Of a DNA stretch of 40,075 nucleotides, positions 4,310 through 38,232 are shown piece by piece. A program made the position numbers and the translations under genes. Position 1 is the stretch's first letter. The number at the start of each line of letters is the position of its first letter. Origin of the DNA: Candidatus Gastranaerophilales bacterium (lineage in GTDB: Bacteria; Cyanobacteriota; Vampirovibrionia; Gastranaerophilales; Gastranaerophilaceae); NCBI GenBank assembly GCA_944325665.1, contig CALVAY010000016.1, positions 1 to 40,075 of the forward strand, written 5' to 3'. Below the pieces are notes generated by a model. That model did no database searches. It worked only from the letters and a program-made list of their open reading frames with translations, and was not told the DNA's origin.

Positions 4310-7078
4310 ATGCAGGTCATTCAAACCGTAAACGACACAATAAGGATACTTTACAATCCCTCAAGTGAAGATTTTAAGCTACTTGATTTTCTTCTCGTGC
4401 AAGACAGCATAAGCAAATATTTGGCTCAAATTATTGAAATATACGACGATAAATATGACTCCTCGCAAAATGTAGCAAGAATTAAACTCTTCTACAAAGT
4501 AAACGACGAGGGAGAAGTCTTTGAATATGACCATTTCACACCTTCCAAAGAGTGCGAAATTAAAAAAATGAGCAGAAGGGAAATTTTAAACTTCGTAAAT
4601 GATGAAAAGACCGTCTTAAACATTGGTCTTGATTACCAAAGCGAAGAACCCTTTGAATTAAACATTGATTTTCTTAAAAACAACCCCGTAATTTTTGCGG
4701 ATAAAATTGACAAATCCTGCGTTATAAGTGCACATTTTGCAAATGTGCTTTCAAGGTACAATTACACAAGCGTAATTTTTGACTATACGGGAAGGCTGCA
4801 CGTCAAGGGCTCAAAAAGACTTACTATTACAAGGGAGCTAAAGCTTCCTCTTGATTATTTCACAATTGACTACATCTGGGAAAAGGGTCTAAGGGGCGCT
4901 TCTCTTGAAACACAAGCAATTTGCAATGACATCTTTAAAGAAGTCAAAAAATTTGCAAAAAATTCCCCGCAAGGTTTTATTCCTTATGAAAAATTTATAA
5001 AAGTTGTCGAAAAACAATATAAGGCAACACCGATTGTTGAATTAAGCCTGCTTTTAAATAAATTGGAAGAATTTCAAAGACACTCGATTTTTGCGCAAAA
5101 AAAAGAAGATTTTGAGTGCATAAAAAAAGCGGTCAATGAAAACCAGATAACCGTTATTGATTTTTCACTAATCAAAACAAGATGGCACAAGGAATTTAGC
5201 GAGTTTATAATAAGAGAACTTAAAAAAGATACTTTTGTATTTTTAAGGTTAAATAACTACAATTCAGACTCGGATTTAATTAACTTTATATATCACAAAG
5301 ACCACGGTTTAAATTTTGTTCCAAGCATTTCATACAACTACAACAAAATGCCGCAAGTAATTGAAAATACAAACAATTACGTTCTTCTGCCAACATTAAA
5401 CCCAAGAAGGGACTTTGGAGCAGCATCTTTTGAATTGGCTGCAATTTCAAAAGATGAGTGTATTCTTTTTGGCGAAAACACGGAAAATTTTGTATTTACA
5501 ATTAAAAATAATAAATTCACAAACAATTCAAACAAAGGCCCAAAAGCCATTAAGAAAATTAAGTTAAAAATTAATTCATCTCCAAACTACACTCCAAAAA
5601 GTTTTAAGGACAAATTCAGACCTTCGTATAACGAAAGATACCAAGAAGAAGACGTTTTAACCGAAGAGGAACTTGATTTTTTTCTGCCGCCCGGTGATAG
5701 CCGGGCTTATGAGGGAAAAGAATTGCCCGAAGAAGAGCAAACTGCCCTTGTAGAAGATAAAGTTCAAAAGGAAGAAGAAAAGGTTGGCCAAAAAGAACCT
5801 TTAATTCAGGCTGAGAATGTAGAGTTTTTACAAGCTGCGCCTGAAATTAAAGAAGAAAATGAGCCTTTAGAGCAAACTGAAAATACGGAATTTTTTGAAG
5901 CAGCAGCAGAAATAAATAAAGAAGAACCTCAAGAAACTACTCAAGAGCAAAAACCTGTTGAAAGTGAATTTAGCACACAGGATAACTCTTTATCTGATGA
6001 AACACCCAAGCAAGAACCTGTAGGCAACCTTACAAATGAAGCTACTTACGAGCTTGAGCAAAAGCTTGAAGAAAAGGAAGAAATTTTAGAAAAAATAGAA
6101 GAAGAAATTATTGAAAAATCCCAAGTGCTTGAGGAAATAGAAGAAGAAATTGAAGATAAAACCGAAACACTTAAAGATATTGAGGAAGAAATAATTGAGC
6201 AAAACGATGAAATAATTGACATCAACAAAGAAGATATTATTGATGAAACCGAAGAAAAACTTGAGCCTGAGGAAGAAGAGGAAACAAAAGAAACTTCACC
6301 GGCTCAAGAAGATGTTTCATTAGCACAAGAAGAAAAAAGGCATTTTATAGAAACCTTTGAAGAAGATGAAATTGACCTAAAAAGCCTTGCTTCATTAAAC
6401 AGTGAGGAAAATTTATCCGAAGCCGACAATTTGGCTCAACAAACAGATAATCAAGAAATTATTCCTCAAGAAGAGCTTCAAAAGACAAAAGAAGAAGTCC
6501 AAGAGCCTTTAGCGCAAGAAGTTAATACTGCTAATGAACAGGAAGAAGCTCAAGAAATCAATAACGACAAAGTAAGAAATATTCAAATAGAGCAAATCCC
6601 TGATGAACCTGAAGAAGAAACTTTTGAAGAGGAAAATCAGGAAAGTATTCAAGATGACCTTGACGAACAAGAGGCATTTGACGAGGGCTTTTCACTTGAG
6701 TCTTTGGCGCAGCAATCAGTAGAAAGTGCTTTTAGCGACGTTATAGAGGACACCGAAGAAGAGGAAGAATACACTGTACAAAAAGACAACTCCTCGGCTC
6801 TTGTTGTTGATGACAACGTAATTATAGATTTTGAAAAAATAAAAGAAGAAATCGACAACGGCGAAAACTCCGGCCTGCCGATTTATTCAAGTAAGACCAA
6901 AAACAAGGAAAAACAAAACTTTAAAGAAGGCGACACAATAATTCATGACAAATACGGACAAGGTACTATTGTAAAAATAGTTGAATACTCAAACCGTTCT
7001 CTTTTGCAAATTAATTTCGACGAAGTAGGCAAAAGACTCCTTGACCCTGACATTGCCGACATAAAAATTAAAGAGTAA
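4310..7078 (+). CDS. Large acidic protein: degenerate HerA-like ATPase domain plus C-terminal Tudor-like domain
   Basis: No gene name fits this 922-residue protein. Residues about 1-95 resemble the barrel that opens HerA/DUF87 ATPases. Residues about 100-400 follow the plan of that ATPase core: LNIGLD, a strand leading to where the P-loop belongs, VIFDYTG near 155-161, a helical insert, TVIDFSLI near 281-288 at the Walker B position, and a closing FGENTENFVFTIK. The P-loop itself reads FADKIDKS (129-136) and lacks the glycines of GxxGxGKS, so ATP hydrolysis is unlikely. Residues about 450-860 are an extremely Glu-rich linker with a coiled-coil repeat. The last 55 residues (EGDTIIHDKYGQGTI to the end) match the Tudor-like tail of PcrA/UvrD helicases, which contacts RNA polymerase in those proteins. 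A scaffold on DNA or polymerase is my inference. Its stop codon abuts that of the next gene. Confidence 0.75.
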   Translation: MQVIQTVNDTIRILYNPSSEDFKLLDFLLVQDSISKYLAQIIEIYDDKYDSSQNVARIKLFYKVNDEGEVFEYDHFTPSKECEIKKMSRREILNFVNDEKTVLNIGLDYQSEEPFELNIDFLKNNPVIFADKIDKSCVISAHFANVLSRYNYTSVIFDYTGRLHVKGSKRLTITRELKLPLDYFTIDYIWEKGLRGASLETQAICNDIFKEVKKFAKNSPQGFIPYEKFIKVVEKQYKATPIVELSLLLNKLEEFQRHSIFAQKKEDFECIKKAVNENQITVIDFSLIKTRWHKEFSEFIIRELKKDTFVFLRLNNYNSDSDLINFIYHKDHGLNFVPSISYNYNKMPQVIENTNNYVLLPTLNPRRDFGAASFELAAISKDECILFGENTENFVFTIKNNKFTNNSNKGPKAIKKIKLKINSSPNYTPKSFKDKFRPSYNERYQEEDVLTEEELDFFLPPGDSRAYEGKELPEEEQTALVEDKVQKEEEKVGQKEPLIQAENVEFLQAAPEIKEENEPLEQTENTEFFEAAAEINKEEPQETTQEQKPVESEFSTQDNSLSDETPKQEPVGNLTNEATYELEQKLEEKEEILEKIEEEIIEKSQVLEEIEEEIEDKTETLKDIEEEIIEQNDEIIDINKEDIIDETEEKLEPEEEEETKETSPAQEDVSLAQEEKRHFIETFEEDEIDLKSLASLNSEENLSEADNLAQQTDNQEIIPQEELQKTKEEVQEPLAQEVNTANEQEEAQEINNDKVRNIQIEQIPDEPEEETFEEENQESIQDDLDEQEAFDEGFSLESLAQQSVESAFSDVIEDTEEEEEYTVQKDNSSALVVDDNVIIDFEKIKEEIDNGENSGLPIYSSKTKNKEKQNFKEGDTIIHDKYGQGTIVKIVEYSNRSLLQINFDEVGKRLLDPDIADIKIKE
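6080..6205 (+). repeat. Three imperfect 42-bp tandem repeats inside the acidic linker
   Basis: Units at 6080-6121, 6122-6163 and 6164-6205 encode 14-residue repeats of the form xxLxxIEEEIxxxx, and a fourth degenerate unit follows. Hydrophobic residues recur at 3-4 residue spacing, as expected for a coiled coil. The repeat is in frame. Confidence 0.7.
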
Positions 7079-7990
7079 CTATTTCATAAAATTATTTAAG
7101 TCGATAAACTCAACAGCTTCTTCAATTGTGTCAAAAGTATTGATAATGTTGTTTAAAAAGACGTAATTAAGCGCCTTTTTAATTGCTTCGCAAGCTTTTA
7201 CCAATACAAATGTGCCTTCTTTTTGAGAAGTTGTTTTGTAAACTTCGGCAAAAATATTTGCATATTTATCAGAGAAAATTTTTATATGCTCAAGGTTAAA
7301 AATTATATTGGGCTTACCCGTTAAAACGTTGGCGTTTGCCTCTTTTATAATTTTATCAACATACTTCTCGTTGTTTATTTTATAAATTGTAATAACGCAA
7401 ATATTGTCGTTAATGTAGTACTTTTGATATTCATCACTCACCGTTTTATTAGCGGATTCCGAGATGAATTTTAAAATTCCTTCATGCCACTGCGGTTGCT
7501 TTGGAATAAACTCGTCAACGCCGTATTGATAGCATTCCTGAATCATTTTAGCGTCATCAGTACCTGAAATTACTATCAATTTAAAATCTTTTTCAGTATC
7601 ATTTTTTAGCTTATTTGCCTGCTCAATAAGTTCAAAACCGTCTTTTGCATCTGGTAAAAACAGGTCGATAATAAGATAATCAATTTTTTTCTTTTTAAGC
7701 TCGGTTAAAGCTTCTTCTTTATTTCTTGCAACATAAACATTAACGCCGATTTTTTTAAGCATTGAGGTTAGCTGATAAATGGATAATTCCATATCATCAA
7801 CAATTAACACATTAATGCTTTCCGCCGTAAAAAAGCTTAGGGGATAGTTAAAAAAGTTTAATTTCCTCTCAAGAGCGATTAATGCACGAGAAACAGTATC
7901 CTCAACAGGTATTTCAGGGCTAACATCAACTCCGGAGAGCTTAACCAAGTTTAAATATTGGTCATGCGTTAATTTTATATCTTCTTCCAT
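7079..7990 (-). CDS. Response regulator: receiver domain fused to a STAS-like domain
   Basis: A probable signalling protein of 303 residues. A helical N-terminal stretch (1-58) is followed by a receiver domain at about 59-180, with acidic pair Asp65-Asp66, phospho-acceptor Asp109 (LIIDLFLP), Ser142 and Lys164. The C-terminal part (about 197-303) looks like a STAS fold: a strand NIIFNLEHIKIFSD, then a helix, FVLVKACEAIKKAL, and a final helix TIEEAVEFI. There is no DNA-binding domain, so output is probably by protein contact, as with anti-anti-sigma factors. An earlier in-frame start at 8119 would overlap the divergent neighbour and add a hydrophobic tail, so I chose the ATG at 7988-7990. No Shine-Dalgarno precedes it, and TATAAT lies 7 bases upstream. 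No histidine kinase is nearby. Confidence 0.82.
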   Translation of the reverse strand: MEEDIKLTHDQYLNLVKLSGVDVSPEIPVEDTVSRALIALERKLNFFNYPLSFFTAESINVLIVDDMELSIYQLTSMLKKIGVNVYVARNKEEALTELKKKKIDYLIIDLFLPDAKDGFELIEQANKLKNDTEKDFKLIVISGTDDAKMIQECYQYGVDEFIPKQPQWHEGILKFISESANKTVSDEYQKYYINDNICVITIYKINNEKYVDKIIKEANANVLTGKPNIIFNLEHIKIFSDKYANIFAEVYKTTSQKEGTFVLVKACEAIKKALNYVFLNNIINTFDTIEEAVEFIDLNNFMK

Positions 7991-7997
7991 GGTTACA

Positions 7998-8003
7998 ATT
8001 ATA
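7998..8003 (-). promoter_or_regulatory. -10 box placed for a leaderless transcript
   Basis: On the minus strand TATAAT is separated from the regulator's ATG by 7 bases (TGTAACC). Transcription would start at or within a base of the start codon. The best -35 candidate, TTGTGG, has a 19-base spacer, so the call is tentative. Confidence 0.45.
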
Positions 8004-8042
8004 CTATAATATACGGAAAATACCACAAGAAAAAATTTGTAA

Positions 8043-8048
8043 TATAAT
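8043..8048 (+). promoter_or_regulatory. -10 box for the phosphohexomutase gene
   Basis: TATAAT at 8043-8048 would start transcription near 8055. That leaves a short leader with a clear ribosome site, AAGGAG, before the ATG at 8076. No strong -35 box is seen. Confidence 0.45.
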
Positions 8049-8075
8049 AAAAGAAAAAATAACAAGGAGTGCAAT

Positions 8076-9587
8076 ATGCAAAATACACTAAATACAAAAG
8101 CTTTTGGTAAAAACGACATAAGAGGAATTTTCCCGACCGAGGTTAACTCCGAACTTTTCTTTAACGCGGCAAAAGGTTATGTAAACTGGGCTCAAGAAAA
8201 GCTCTCAAAAATTGAAGGTCAAAGAAAAAGCTATGATGAAATGTTATTTTGCGTTTGTATGGATGCAAGGCTGCACTCAAAAGAGTTAAAAGATGCCGTA
8301 ATTCAAGGTATAACTTCAACCGGTGCAAATGTCTTAGACCTTGGTTTAGCCCCCACCCCTATGGGTTATTTCAGCGAATTTGCAAAAATAGACAAAGAAA
8401 TTACCGAAGGCAAGGTGCCAAACGGTGCTTTAATTATAACAGCATCACACAACCCGAGCGAATATAACGGGTTAAAAATGACCTTTAATCGTGCCTCACT
8501 TAGCGAAAGTGATATAAAAGAGGTTAAGGAGTACACAATTAAAGCTTACGAAGACTCAAAAAATTATACATACAGAACGGTAAAAGAAGGCTTTAAAAAG
8601 GAATACGACATAATTTCAAACTATCAGGATAAAATTTCCGATATGTTTGATAAAATCGGAGAAAACATTAAAATAGTAGTGGATTCGGCAAACGCAACAG
8701 GCGGAATAGTTGCCCCGAAATTATACAGAGATTTAGGCTGTGAAGTTATCGAGCTTTTCTCTGAGCCTGACGGCAATTTCCCTAATCACCATCCAAACCC
8801 GTCTGATGAAAAAACCCTTGATGCAATTAAAAAAGCGGTGGTTGAAAACAATGCCGACTTTGGTATTGCATTTGACGGAGATTCGGACAGAATAGGCGTT
8901 GTAAGCTCTCAGGGCAAAGCAATTTCAGGCGACAAGCTACTTTTAATTTATGCTCTTGATTTAATCAACGAACTAAAAGCAAGGGGCGAGGTTCCGACCA
9001 TTGTAAGCGAGGTTAAATGCTCACAGGTTTTATATGACACAATTAATGCTAACGGCGGACGAGCAATAATGTACAAAACAGGCCATGGCTACATTAAATC
9101 AAAAATGAAAGAAGAAAATGCGCTTTTAGCAGGCGAAATGAGCGGACATGTCTTCTTTAAAGACAGGTACTTTGGCTATGATGACGCAATTTACGCCGGT
9201 TGCAGACTTATTGAAATTGTCGCCAAAAACAAAAAACAAAACAAAGATTTCGACCTTACTCAATTAATCGAGCCGTTTGAGAGAGTTCATCTGTCTCAAG
9301 AGGTAAGACTAAAATGCCCTAATGAATTTAAAAAGGCCGTATTAGAAGAACTTGAAGGCAAAATTTGCGACGAATTGTTTAATTCAAAAATCAAAGAAAT
9401 AGTTACAATAGACGGGCTTAGAATAATTTTTGAGGACGGTTTTGCTCTAATCAGACAAAGTAACACAGAACCTGTTTTCACTTTAAGATTTGAGGCAAAA
9501 ACAAAACAGCAGTGCGAAAATTATCAAAATGCGCTTTGCACGCTTGCTCAAGAATTAACGGATAAGCACTCAAAGGCAAAAGTATAA
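8076..9587 (+). CDS. Phosphomannomutase/phosphoglucomutase (alpha-D-phosphohexomutase)
   Basis: It interconverts hexose 6- and 1-phosphates, feeding nucleotide-sugar synthesis for envelope polysaccharides or glycogen. The 503 residues carry all four family signatures in order: the phosphoserine loop TASHNP near residue 127, the metal loop DGDSDR near 269-274, the sugar-binding loop GEMSGH near 355, and the phosphate-binding loop RQSNTEP near 464. The N-terminus FGKNDIRGIFP is also typical. A good ribosome site (AAGGAG) precedes the ATG. The gene is divergent from the receiver-STAS gene, with roughly 85 bases between start codons. Sugar preference (mannose, glucose or both) cannot be told, so no symbol is given. 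Confidence 0.93.
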   Translation: MQNTLNTKAFGKNDIRGIFPTEVNSELFFNAAKGYVNWAQEKLSKIEGQRKSYDEMLFCVCMDARLHSKELKDAVIQGITSTGANVLDLGLAPTPMGYFSEFAKIDKEITEGKVPNGALIITASHNPSEYNGLKMTFNRASLSESDIKEVKEYTIKAYEDSKNYTYRTVKEGFKKEYDIISNYQDKISDMFDKIGENIKIVVDSANATGGIVAPKLYRDLGCEVIELFSEPDGNFPNHHPNPSDEKTLDAIKKAVVENNADFGIAFDGDSDRIGVVSSQGKAISGDKLLLIYALDLINELKARGEVPTIVSEVKCSQVLYDTINANGGRAIMYKTGHGYIKSKMKEENALLAGEMSGHVFFKDRYFGYDDAIYAGCRLIEIVAKNKKQNKDFDLTQLIEPFERVHLSQEVRLKCPNEFKKAVLEELEGKICDELFNSKIKEIVTIDGLRIIFEDGFALIRQSNTEPVFTLRFEAKTKQQCENYQNALCTLAQELTDKHSKAKV

Positions 9588-34380: not shown

Positions 34381-37300
34381 TTATTCAATTGTGAAATCAG
34401 GAGCACCAAACATACCTTCAATTTCTTCTAAAATTGCAGAAGGTTTTCTAGCTTGGTTTTTCTGTTGAGCACGTCTTAGCGCTTCTTTTTCTTTTTCTTC
34501 ATTAGCGTTGATTAAGTGGTAATAGCCTGTACCGGCAGGTATTAGACGACCGATAATAACGTTTTCTTTCAAACCTCTTAACAAGTCTTTTTTACCTTCA
34601 ACGGCAGCTTCCGTTAAGATTCTTGTTGTTTCTTGGAAAGAAGCAGCAGAGATGAAGCTTTCGGTATTCAATGAAGCTTTTGTAATACCAAGTAGAAGTG
34701 CTTCATAAGTTGCTTTTTCGCCGCCTTGTTTTTCAACTTCAGCGTTTTGAGCTTCGATTTCTTTTAGTTCAACAAGTTCGCCCGGAAGAAGTTTTGTTGT
34801 GCCTGAGTCAACAACTCTTACCTTTTTAATCATCTGACGAACAATAACTTCAACGTGCTTATCTGCAATTTCAACACCTTGAGAACGATATACTCTTTGT
34901 ACTTCATCTACAAGATATTGTTGAGCAGCATTTGCGCCTCTTAGTCTGATAACGTCATGAGGGTTAAGCGGACCTGAAGTTAGAGCCTGACCTTTAACTA
35001 TTTTTTGTTTGTCCATAACGATAACGCTTGATTCAATCGGATATTTGATTTCTTCTCTGCCGTTTTCGTTTACTATGAACAATCTTGCAACGTCATCTTC
35101 GTATTCAATTTCAGCAACACCGTCTTGTTCTGCAACAATTGCGCAGTCTTTCGGTTTTCTTGCTTCAAGAAGTTCTTCAACACGAGGAAGACCTTGAACG
35201 ATATCACCTGTTTTTTGTCTTTCAAATACAAGTGTTGCAAGTAAATCACCCCTTAGGATTAGAGCAGAATTTTCAACCTGCAATAGCGTACCGGGGCTGA
35301 TTAAGTGAGGACGACCCACTCTTATTGTTACTGATTTAGCATCAGCAGCAACAACTCTACCTGAGCAAGGAGAAGTTTCGCCTGAAGATGAAATTACACT
35401 GTCAAGCTTAACAAATTCGCCTACTTTAACGCTCGGTTTTGATTTAACTTCAATTTTGTTTTCGTAAGCGTCTGATACAAGCAATAATCTTCTTAATTCT
35501 TTATCAGTTTGTTTAATGCTTGCAACAGAATCATTTACTGAAAGAACTTGAGTTTTTGTAACAGGAGTTCTAGGTTCAATTACTTGACCGTTTTCAACAA
35601 GAAGTTCTGTTTGAGTTGAAGATAACATTCTTGAGCCTTCTTCTTGTTCACGGCGAACAATTAGAGTTTCAAGAACAACGATTTTCAAACTGCCTTCTTT
35701 ATCTAACTCAACAAGACCCTTTAAGTGGCTTAAATATCCGCCCATTGAAAGAACTAATGAAGTTCTTGTAAGAACGGCACCATCAAGGTTACGAACTCTT
35801 GCACCATCTTTGAATTGTAATTGAGTCAAAGGAACGATTTCAATAGCTTCGTCAGTTGTATTGAACTCGATTGAAACGTCTTTCGGCTTAATTTCAAATC
35901 TTTGGATAGGTCTTATAAGTATTTGAACCGATTTGTTTTCAATATTATCGTCATCAACGATATCTTCAGTGATTTCTTCGTCTAAATCATCAATTTCAAG
36001 AACGTCAGATTCGTTTTCAACAATTGTAACGATTGAATCAACTTTTGCTTTGATACCTGCCGCAACAATTGTTCCTGCTTTTACCACTTCACCTTCATCA
36101 ACTTTTAAGTCATTGATTGATTCAAGCGTGTGCAGTTCACCGGGACGAATTACAACTTCGTGAATAATATCGTTAAATTCTTTAATTTCAACAATACCGT
36201 CAATGTGAGTGTATAGGTCTTTTACAACCTCAGTACCCGCTTCGACGTATGTACCTGATTCAACAAGTTTTAGGGATGAATCTTTTGAAATTTGGTGAAT
36301 TTCTTCAGGAATAAAGATTGCTTCACCCGCTTTTGTTACAACTTGGTTTTCGTCAACTTCAACACCGTTGTAGCGAATTTCACCTGAAGATTCAACTTTG
36401 TGTTCTTCATCGATAAGCTCAGCGATTATCATACCGTTTTCAACCGTTGTATCTATCGGACATTTAACGATATATTTTTCGCCTGTTTTATCAACATTCC
36501 AGAATTGTTCTTTCTTAGTTTGTTCGAAAGTCGCATTTGAAGGCTGCAAAGATGCAATAACGATTGTAAGTTCTTTACCTGCAACAATTTTCTTGATTTT
36601 CCTACCGTCAAATTTAACTTCTTCAACTTCCAAAGAATTACCTACGCGAACTTCACCGCCGTGTTCCGAAACGATTAGAGTTTCAGCAAGTTTTTCACCT
36701 TTTTTAACTTTTTGGCCGTCTGAAACAAGGACTTTTGAACCGGCAGGAAGTGTATAAACATCCCCGCCAAGTACCCAAACAATACCTTGTTTGTTTGAAG
36801 TTCTTGAAATGTTTCCTTGTCTGTCTTTCTTTTCGTCAGCAACGAAGTCTTCAAAAACTACTTCACCTGAAATATCAGATGTAATATCTTTTGTAGCCTT
36901 TTCTGTCAAACGAGAACCGTCCCCTTTAGAAGCGGGTTCGTATTCAGCGATTTCTTGACCTTTTTTAACTTCCATTCCTTGAGTAACATAAATTTTAGCA
37001 CCTGAAGGAACGTGAGCTTTTGAAACATTGCCTTTTTTATCTTCGATTTCAATATCTACTTCTTTGATTGCAACTTGTACAACATCCCCGTGACGAGTTC
37101 TCAATTCACGAGTTTTAACAGCTGTTTTAACTGTACCGTCAACAGGCGATTCAACGTGCTTCATAGCACCTGAACCTTTAAATACACCACCTGTGTGGAA
37201 TGTTCTCATTGTAAGCTGTGTACCGGGTTCACCGATTGATTGAGCGGCGATAATACCGATTGCTTCACCAATGTCAACAAGTTTTTGAGTTGTCATTGCC

Positions 37301-38232
37301 CAGCCGTAACATTTTTGGCAAATACCGTATTCAAGTTCGCAAGTAAGAGTTGAGCGAACATCAACTTCTTTAAGTTTAAGTTCTTTAATTTTTGCCAAAT
37401 CTTCACGGTTAACGGTTGTATTTTTAGTAACTACAATATTTCCGTCTTTATCTAAAATATCTTGAGCAACCGTTCTACCCAATAATCTGTCTTCAAGAGG
37501 AACAATTATTTCATCCCCGTCCATAATAGCCGTTAATTTGATTGATTTATTTGTATGGCAATCTTCTTCGCGGATAATAACGTCTTGAGCAACGTCAACC
37601 AAACGACGTGTAAGGTAACCTGAGTCAGCGGTTTTAAGCGCCGTATCTACAAGACCTTTACGAGCACCGTAAGAGGAGATGATGTATTCTGTAACAGACA
37701 AACCTTCTTTAAAGTTAGATTTAATCGGCAAGTCGATGATTTGACCTTGTGCGTCAGCCATCAAACCACGCATACCAACAAGCTGTGATACCTGTGATAA
37801 GTTACCTCTCGCACCTGAGAATGCCATCATATAAACGGGGTTTAATCTGTCAAAGTTTTCAACTACTTGTTCAGTCAATTTTGCCGTTGTTTCAGACCAA
37901 GTGTCGATAACCTTTGTATATCTTTCAACTTCGGTGATTTCACCTTTTAAATATCTGTTAGTAGATTGTTCGATTTGATCTTGAGCTTCTTGCAAAAGCT
38001 GTTGTTTTACTTTAGGTACGCTCAAATCGTGAATTGAAATTGTTGTACCTGCTTTTGTCGCATATTTAAAACCCAAGTTTTTCAAGTTATTTGCAAGTTC
38101 AGCTGTCTTTGCTCCGCCCCATTCAAGATATATTTGGGATAACAGTTTTCTAAGACCGCCTTTATCAACAACTCGGTTGATAAATTCAACTGTTTGTTTT
38201 TTCTTTTTACTCTGTGGAGTTAATGTAGTCAT
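34381..38232 (-). CDS. rpoC2: RNA polymerase beta' subunit, C-terminal part (RpoC2)
   Basis: The C-terminal half of the split beta' subunit, in the transcription core enzyme. The 1283 residues begin with MTTLTPQSKKKK and contain the secondary channel and funnel (FSGARGNLSQVSQLVGMRGLMA near 140), a four-cysteine zinc site (C near 230, CELEYGICQKC near 300) and the trigger-loop start IIAAQSIGEPGTQLTMRTF near 335. The rest of the trigger loop is not next to it: several hundred residues of beta-barrel-like SBHM repeats are inserted (SI3), and the conserved end (SFISAASFQETTRILTEAAVEG) appears near 1195. The split and SI3 match Cyanobacteria. The ATG follows GAGG, 45 bases after rpoC1. Confidence 0.97.
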   Translation of the reverse strand: MTTLTPQSKKKKQTVEFINRVVDKGGLRKLLSQIYLEWGGAKTAELANNLKNLGFKYATKAGTTISIHDLSVPKVKQQLLQEAQDQIEQSTNRYLKGEITEVERYTKVIDTWSETTAKLTEQVVENFDRLNPVYMMAFSGARGNLSQVSQLVGMRGLMADAQGQIIDLPIKSNFKEGLSVTEYIISSYGARKGLVDTALKTADSGYLTRRLVDVAQDVIIREEDCHTNKSIKLTAIMDGDEIIVPLEDRLLGRTVAQDILDKDGNIVVTKNTTVNREDLAKIKELKLKEVDVRSTLTCELEYGICQKCYGWAMTTQKLVDIGEAIGIIAAQSIGEPGTQLTMRTFHTGGVFKGSGAMKHVESPVDGTVKTAVKTRELRTRHGDVVQVAIKEVDIEIEDKKGNVSKAHVPSGAKIYVTQGMEVKKGQEIAEYEPASKGDGSRLTEKATKDITSDISGEVVFEDFVADEKKDRQGNISRTSNKQGIVWVLGGDVYTLPAGSKVLVSDGQKVKKGEKLAETLIVSEHGGEVRVGNSLEVEEVKFDGRKIKKIVAGKELTIVIASLQPSNATFEQTKKEQFWNVDKTGEKYIVKCPIDTTVENGMIIAELIDEEHKVESSGEIRYNGVEVDENQVVTKAGEAIFIPEEIHQISKDSSLKLVESGTYVEAGTEVVKDLYTHIDGIVEIKEFNDIIHEVVIRPGELHTLESINDLKVDEGEVVKAGTIVAAGIKAKVDSIVTIVENESDVLEIDDLDEEITEDIVDDDNIENKSVQILIRPIQRFEIKPKDVSIEFNTTDEAIEIVPLTQLQFKDGARVRNLDGAVLTRTSLVLSMGGYLSHLKGLVELDKEGSLKIVVLETLIVRREQEEGSRMLSSTQTELLVENGQVIEPRTPVTKTQVLSVNDSVASIKQTDKELRRLLLVSDAYENKIEVKSKPSVKVGEFVKLDSVISSSGETSPCSGRVVAADAKSVTIRVGRPHLISPGTLLQVENSALILRGDLLATLVFERQKTGDIVQGLPRVEELLEARKPKDCAIVAEQDGVAEIEYEDDVARLFIVNENGREEIKYPIESSVIVMDKQKIVKGQALTSGPLNPHDVIRLRGANAAQQYLVDEVQRVYRSQGVEIADKHVEVIVRQMIKKVRVVDSGTTKLLPGELVELKEIEAQNAEVEKQGGEKATYEALLLGITKASLNTESFISAASFQETTRILTEAAVEGKKDLLRGLKENVIIGRLIPAGTGYYHLINANEEKEKEALRRAQQKNQARKPSAILEEIEGMFGAPDFTIE

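Follow-up and report, generated by a model that had tools for sequence, protein, structure and literature searches.

Structure of the gene and its product

The window analyzed here is the whole stretch of 40,075 nucleotides, which forms contig 16 of a 1.65-Mb genome, and at positions 4310-7078 of its forward strand lies an open reading frame (ORF) of 922 amino acids with an ATG start. The sequence-only reading had divided the product into a degenerate HerA-type part, a linker and a PcrA-like tail, and this three-part plan, an observation we confirm, agrees with the ORF, fold and profile evidence presented below. Since the protein was found in 57 of 58 close relatives and is under purifying selection, the ORF is not a product of chance. 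The features are listed below with their positions in the window, the strand and the basis of each assignment.

4310-7078, +: whole gene, encoding a P-loop-less HerA domain, an acidic linker and a Tudor tail, 922 aa (ORF and relatives)
4310-4609, +: HAS-barrel region of the HerA plan, residues 1-100 (AlphaFold2 strands; VIA alignment to 4D2I from residue 1)
4610-5509, +: RecA-like HerA core with helix bundle, residues 101-400 (PDB profile match, AlphaFold2 model, Foldseek and VIA-align; DUF87 in relatives)
4694-4720, +: place of the lost P-loop, FADKIDKSC, residues 129-137 (aligned with HerA ATGSGKS; no glycine)
4781-4783, +: D158, invariant, at the end of strand 2, aligned with D176 (motif DxxGE) of Sulfolobus solfataricus HerA (alignment to 4D2I and family alignment; the equivalence was counted by hand from the profile alignment)
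5147-5167, +: ITVIDFS, residues 280-286, the HerA strand before Walker B (aligned with KIVIIDMS of L071)
5234-5263, +: probable Walker B place, FVFLRLNNYN, without the DE pair, residues 309-318 (strand order in the model; comparison with AVFCDEAH of L071)
5468-5506, +: closing HerA strand FGENTENFVFTIK, residues 387-399 (family consensus and alignment to 4D2I)
5525-6919, +: acidic linker, residues 406-870, 147 D/E against 44 K/R (composition)
5660-5683, +: first short linker motif, TEEELDFF, residues 451-458 (77 of 93 linkers)
6875-6886, +: second short linker motif, LPIY, just before the Tudor domain, residues 856-859 (92 of 93 linkers)
6917-7075, +: PcrA/UvrD-type Tudor domain, residues 870-922 (PF21196, model and VIA-align)

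Downstream of the gene and convergent with it, a response regulator receiver domain fused to a STAS domain is encoded at 7079-8119 on the reverse strand, and an ORF of 1283 amino acids is found at 34381-38232, also on the reverse strand.

HerA fold without ATPase motifs

When the protein was scanned with Pfam, the tail alone was matched (PF21196, residues 874-911), and residues 1-409 alone gave a weak value of 0.014 against DUF87 (PF01935). In deep homologues, DUF87 was detected with values from 2e-9 to 2e-4 (2.2e-9 in L046, followed by 1.9e-8 and 1e-7), and five family members matched the NCBIfam HerA model, with values reaching 8.4e-5. A profile of 35 members searched against the whole PDB matched a single chain, HerA 4D2I (8.6e-8). 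The AlphaFold2 model of residues 1-409 (pLDDT 88.7, pTM 0.87) found the same S. solfataricus structure as its best match both with Foldseek (3.4e-16) and with VIA-align (Z 25.0, rmsd 3.7, 386 residues, the HAS-barrel region included). Because hhalign of the family N-terminal profile against one canonical HerA (L071) reached a probability of only 22%, homology rests on the DUF87 matches, the PDB profile, Foldseek and VIA-align instead. Thus residues 1-409 form a complete HerA fold with both HAS-barrel and RecA-like core, as the earlier reading had supposed for the first 400 residues, and the evidence is strong for identity as a HerA-derived, P-loop-less, Tudor-tailed core protein.

The loss of the P-loop, noticed already in the window alone, proved to be a property of the whole family. 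The profile alignment to 4D2I pairs HerA ATGSGKS with "sdkqenkn" of the family consensus, the DUF87 match in deep members mostly starts just past the P-loop (profile positions 36-46), and no [AG]xxxxGK[ST] was found anywhere in the 95 full-length Gastranaerophilales members or in 16 members from sister orders; no relative with an intact P-loop, in its usual place or elsewhere in the protein, was therefore detected among these homologues. The Walker B assignment has to be changed, since TVIDFSLI, previously regarded as Walker B-like, pairs with the preceding strand KIVIIDMSPI of the canonical HerA L071, whose Walker B (AVFCDEAH) lies C-terminal to that strand. By strand order in the model, the Walker B place is likely to be FVFLRLNNYN, while the DE itself is not aligned in hhalign against L071. 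This place reads LRLNN in the window and has mostly N/D and N/E/D in the family, with an occasional DE in deep members. Because the defining motifs of the HerA ATPases, Walker A GxxxxGK[ST] and the Walker B DE pair, were looked for and are missing, we do not file the protein as a HerA ATPase, and judging from sequence and model, canonical ATP-driven translocation is not expected.

Tudor tail and candidate docking partners

The likeness of the tail to the polymerase-contacting end of PcrA/UvrD has been substantiated by profile and fold. Residues 874-911 match PF21196 (PcrA_UvrD_tudor) with 8.3e-7 and 29.2 bits against a cut-off of 23.9, and the tail is modeled as a five-strand barrel (pLDDT 83.4), for which the four best VIA-align matches are UvrD/PcrA Tudors (7EGS, 9DQS, 5DMA and 7EGT; Z 7.7-8.6), including complexes with the RNA polymerase lobe (7EGS) and with UvrB (7EGT). 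It is present in 93 of 95 complete members, and one of the two exceptions has a sequence that runs into N. H681, W684, K712 and L714 of PcrA are needed for binding of RNA polymerase (PMC5397179), and the corresponding positions are occupied by H (69 of 93, else T), Y, R/K and L, with conservative changes at two. No SF1 helicase core was found in the protein by the Pfam scan, and the PcrA-type tail of the same genome sits in another gene. In a tree of tails, those of the present protein, from Gastranaerophilales and from sister orders, and those of PcrA fall on two sides (support 96/97) with one long-branch exception (L039); finer forks of this tree are unsure because it was built on few columns. 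An origin of the tail as a recent copy of the PcrA tail of the same genome has no support in this tree. The PcrA tails of Gastranaerophilales form a long branch (99/100) and have no LLDP (L212 and others), a signature retained by PcrA of other orders.

The published helicase interaction motif of PcrA is [VIL]DxxTGE[VIL][VILT] (PMC8318588). When the motif was searched as DNA across the window's genome, seven matches were obtained against none in the reversed control, and UvrB, named from its sequence, contains IDQTTGEIL, a perfect fit. RpoB is truncated at the end of a contig, and in its N-terminal fragment, which the search covered, neither [VIL]DxxTGE nor a clear SI1 insert was found; elsewhere there is only an imperfect VNRDSGEIK. 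This result bears on the possibility that the protein is a polymerase-bound factor, whose Tudor domain would dock on the polymerase in the manner of PcrA/UvrD, tuning transcription or its coupling to repair. The kept contact residues and the order of structural matches, in which CarD/Mfd Tudors come after those of UvrD/PcrA, are in its favor, but with the RpoB fragment lacking the docking motif we consider it rather unlikely. The RNA polymerase-interacting Tudors of CarD/Mfd share the fold and a weak profile match (0.027), and both in sequence and in structure they are matched more weakly than PcrA/UvrD.

Acidic linker

The linker, described earlier as Glu-rich, is acidic not only in the window but in all members measured, with a median of 33% D/E and lengths of 122-623 amino acids. 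Of 93 linkers, 77 have a motif of the TEEELDFF/TEDDLDFI type and 92 have [LVI]P[IVL][YF] just before the Tudor domain, against 0.66 and 3, respectively, expected from shuffled sequences; since the shuffles preserve composition and not relatedness, these counts include shared ancestry. With these two conserved short motifs, the linker is more than a spacer. An acidic chaperone or nucleic-acid mimic, in which the linker with about one-third D/E would shield the basic surfaces of partners that bind DNA or RNA, with the folded ends serving only to position it, is consistent with the acidity of every linker measured and of the HerA-like domain, whose net charge is negative in each member measured (-2 to -22). 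Variable length combined with two conserved motifs speaks for specific docking and not for bulk charge, and this alternative is clearly unlikely.

Distribution, origin and gene neighborhood

In a sample of the phylum, the N-terminal profile detected the protein in 130 of 131 Gastranaerophilales genomes and in none of about 161 others (counts tallied by hand from the listing); within this order the gene is nearly universal and present once per genome. A search of genome contigs with the full-length window protein as query gave no match. With the tail profile, second, non-PcrA proteins were found in three families (f9, f14 and f15) belonging to other orders of the class. These are 611-2158 amino acids long, have the same plan and have no P-loop; their N-terminal profile aligns with that of Gastranaerophilales over most of its length (hhalign 96.8%, 2.7e-10) and by itself found no relative in the PDB. 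An order-restricted origin is thus rejected, and the occurrence of diverged P-loop-less relatives in other orders indicates that the loss of the P-loop predates Gastranaerophilales. Among same-genus homologues, dN/dS is 0.03-0.10, indicating purifying selection, and since dS exceeds 1 for most pairs, the ratio is reliable only for the closest ones. The gene is also carried by the record FR900462.1 (L132), which is titled Fusobacterium sp. CAG:439, and this name is therefore probably wrong.

Immediately upstream, 67 of 100 loci have nadD and yqeK, with names inferred from sequence, and this arrangement is that of most of the window's family. In sister orders, rarA (MgsA_C, 4e-56) is head-to-head with the gene in 11 of 16 loci, and six deep loci, from several deep Gastranaerophilales families, have a gene of the ComM/YifB type (Mg-chelatase-like) next to the gene or one gene away; in the genus to which the window belongs, the gene has neither of these two neighbors. 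A cytoplasmic scaffold outside DNA metabolism, whether together with NadD-YqeK, in cell division or elsewhere, would accord with the predominant upstream pair and with weak SepF-like matches in three members. Because the nadD-yqeK context is absent in deep families and sister orders, and the Tudor domain is of the DNA repair helicase type, we regard this as quite improbable.

In 10 of 58 genomes, from deep families f2-f5, the gene is directly preceded on its own strand by a gene for a conserved protein of 153 amino acids without a Pfam match (L037, L039, L044, L045, L047, L048 and L049 among the loci); this protein is missing from the window's family, and its role as a universal small partner was rejected. 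Two further candidates were also rejected: a partnership with an active HerA encoded by the same genome, for which no DUF87 match was found in the window's genome, and a defense system, for which there was no PADLOC match.

A proposed HerA-derived scaffold

We hold with moderate confidence that the protein would work as a non-catalytic scaffold docked on UvrB or RNA polymerase. The more specific reading that we prefer, with a probability of about 0.42, is that of a HerA-derived, non-catalytic pseudo-ATPase that most likely serves DNA repair or fork handling as a scaffold, with its Tudor domain docked on UvrB first and on RNA polymerase second. By keeping the full HerA fold and losing the P-loop and the Walker B acidic pair, a motor would have been turned into an adaptor. 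The HerA-like part may bind partners, possibly still as a ring, the two short motifs of the long flexible acidic arm probably bind further ones, and the Tudor domain would dock the assembly on proteins with the helicase interaction motif. The near-universal single copy, the purifying selection and the rarA and ComM/YifB-type neighbors support the scaffold reading, and the net negative HerA-like domain, the RpoB fragment without the motif, the different neighbors in the window's own genus and the DUF87 value of 0.014 are against it.

The interpretation of the protein as a DNA or polymerase scaffold in the sequence-only reading is thus partly supported: a non-catalytic scaffold is still the best reading, while "DNA" is weakened by the negative net charge of the HerA-like domain and "polymerase" by the RpoB fragment, in which the docking motif and a clear SI1 insert are missing, while UvrB has a perfect motif. 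A non-canonical nucleotide enzyme, which would bind ATP without a P-loop and use the invariant D158 in catalysis, is very improbable because the sequence no longer has the lysine and glycines of Walker A or the Walker B pair, even though D158 is at the end of strand 2, where the proposed catalytic acid of Deinococcus radiodurans HerA is located (PMC9960219).

Concerning the history of the scaffold, we can propose only as a doubtful scenario that in the non-photosynthetic relatives of cyanobacteria the ATPase of an ancient HerA translocase was lost, and that the protein gained a PcrA/UvrD-type Tudor domain once and became a core hub of repair or transcription coupling, which in Gastranaerophilales would have taken over the canonical docking site as the tail of PcrA itself diverged.

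Comparison with known systems

HerA (4D2I; 7WRX of D. radiodurans; PF01935) and the present protein share the HAS-barrel, the RecA-like core, the order of elements, DxxG ending strand 2 and the closing GxxT strand; the present protein differs in having neither P-loop nor Walker B acidic pair, in an identity of 12-15%, and in the added acidic linker and Tudor domain. With the C-terminal Tudor of PcrA/UvrD (PF21196; 5DMA, 7EGS and 7EGT), it has in common five strands, the contacts H, aromatic, basic and L, and a long flexible linker, but here the domain is fused to a HerA fold and not to an SF1 helicase, and it stands apart from PcrA tails in the tree. G[KR]RLLDP is carried by the Tudor domain of the pseudo-HerA and has been lost by PcrA of Gastranaerophilales.

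To our knowledge, no pseudo-enzyme has been described that descends from a hexameric DNA pump and is kept as a core gene across a whole bacterial order, and the literature found holds none in the portions covered. New here are the single copy and near-universality, the sister-order relatives, the split of the tails, the purifying selection, the linker motifs, and the rarA and ComM/YifB-type contexts. Gastranaerophilales are relatives of cyanobacteria from the gut, and in them a motor has apparently been converted into an adaptor, a dead ATPase that goes unnoticed in a routine family scan of the window's genome. For a lineage in which little genetics has been done, it offers a concrete and testable connection between a dead HerA fold, docking of the PcrA type, and repair or transcription.

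The ATPases of SIR2-HerA, DUF4297-HerA and DndH, which are similar in the HerA fold (Foldseek and VIA-align), keep their ATPase motifs and belong to defense systems (PMC10853773), whereas the present protein is the product of a core gene. Intact HerA ATPases of relatives (L071, L073 and L074) adjoin a SIR2-like gene, and these are probably SIR2-HerA defense loci.
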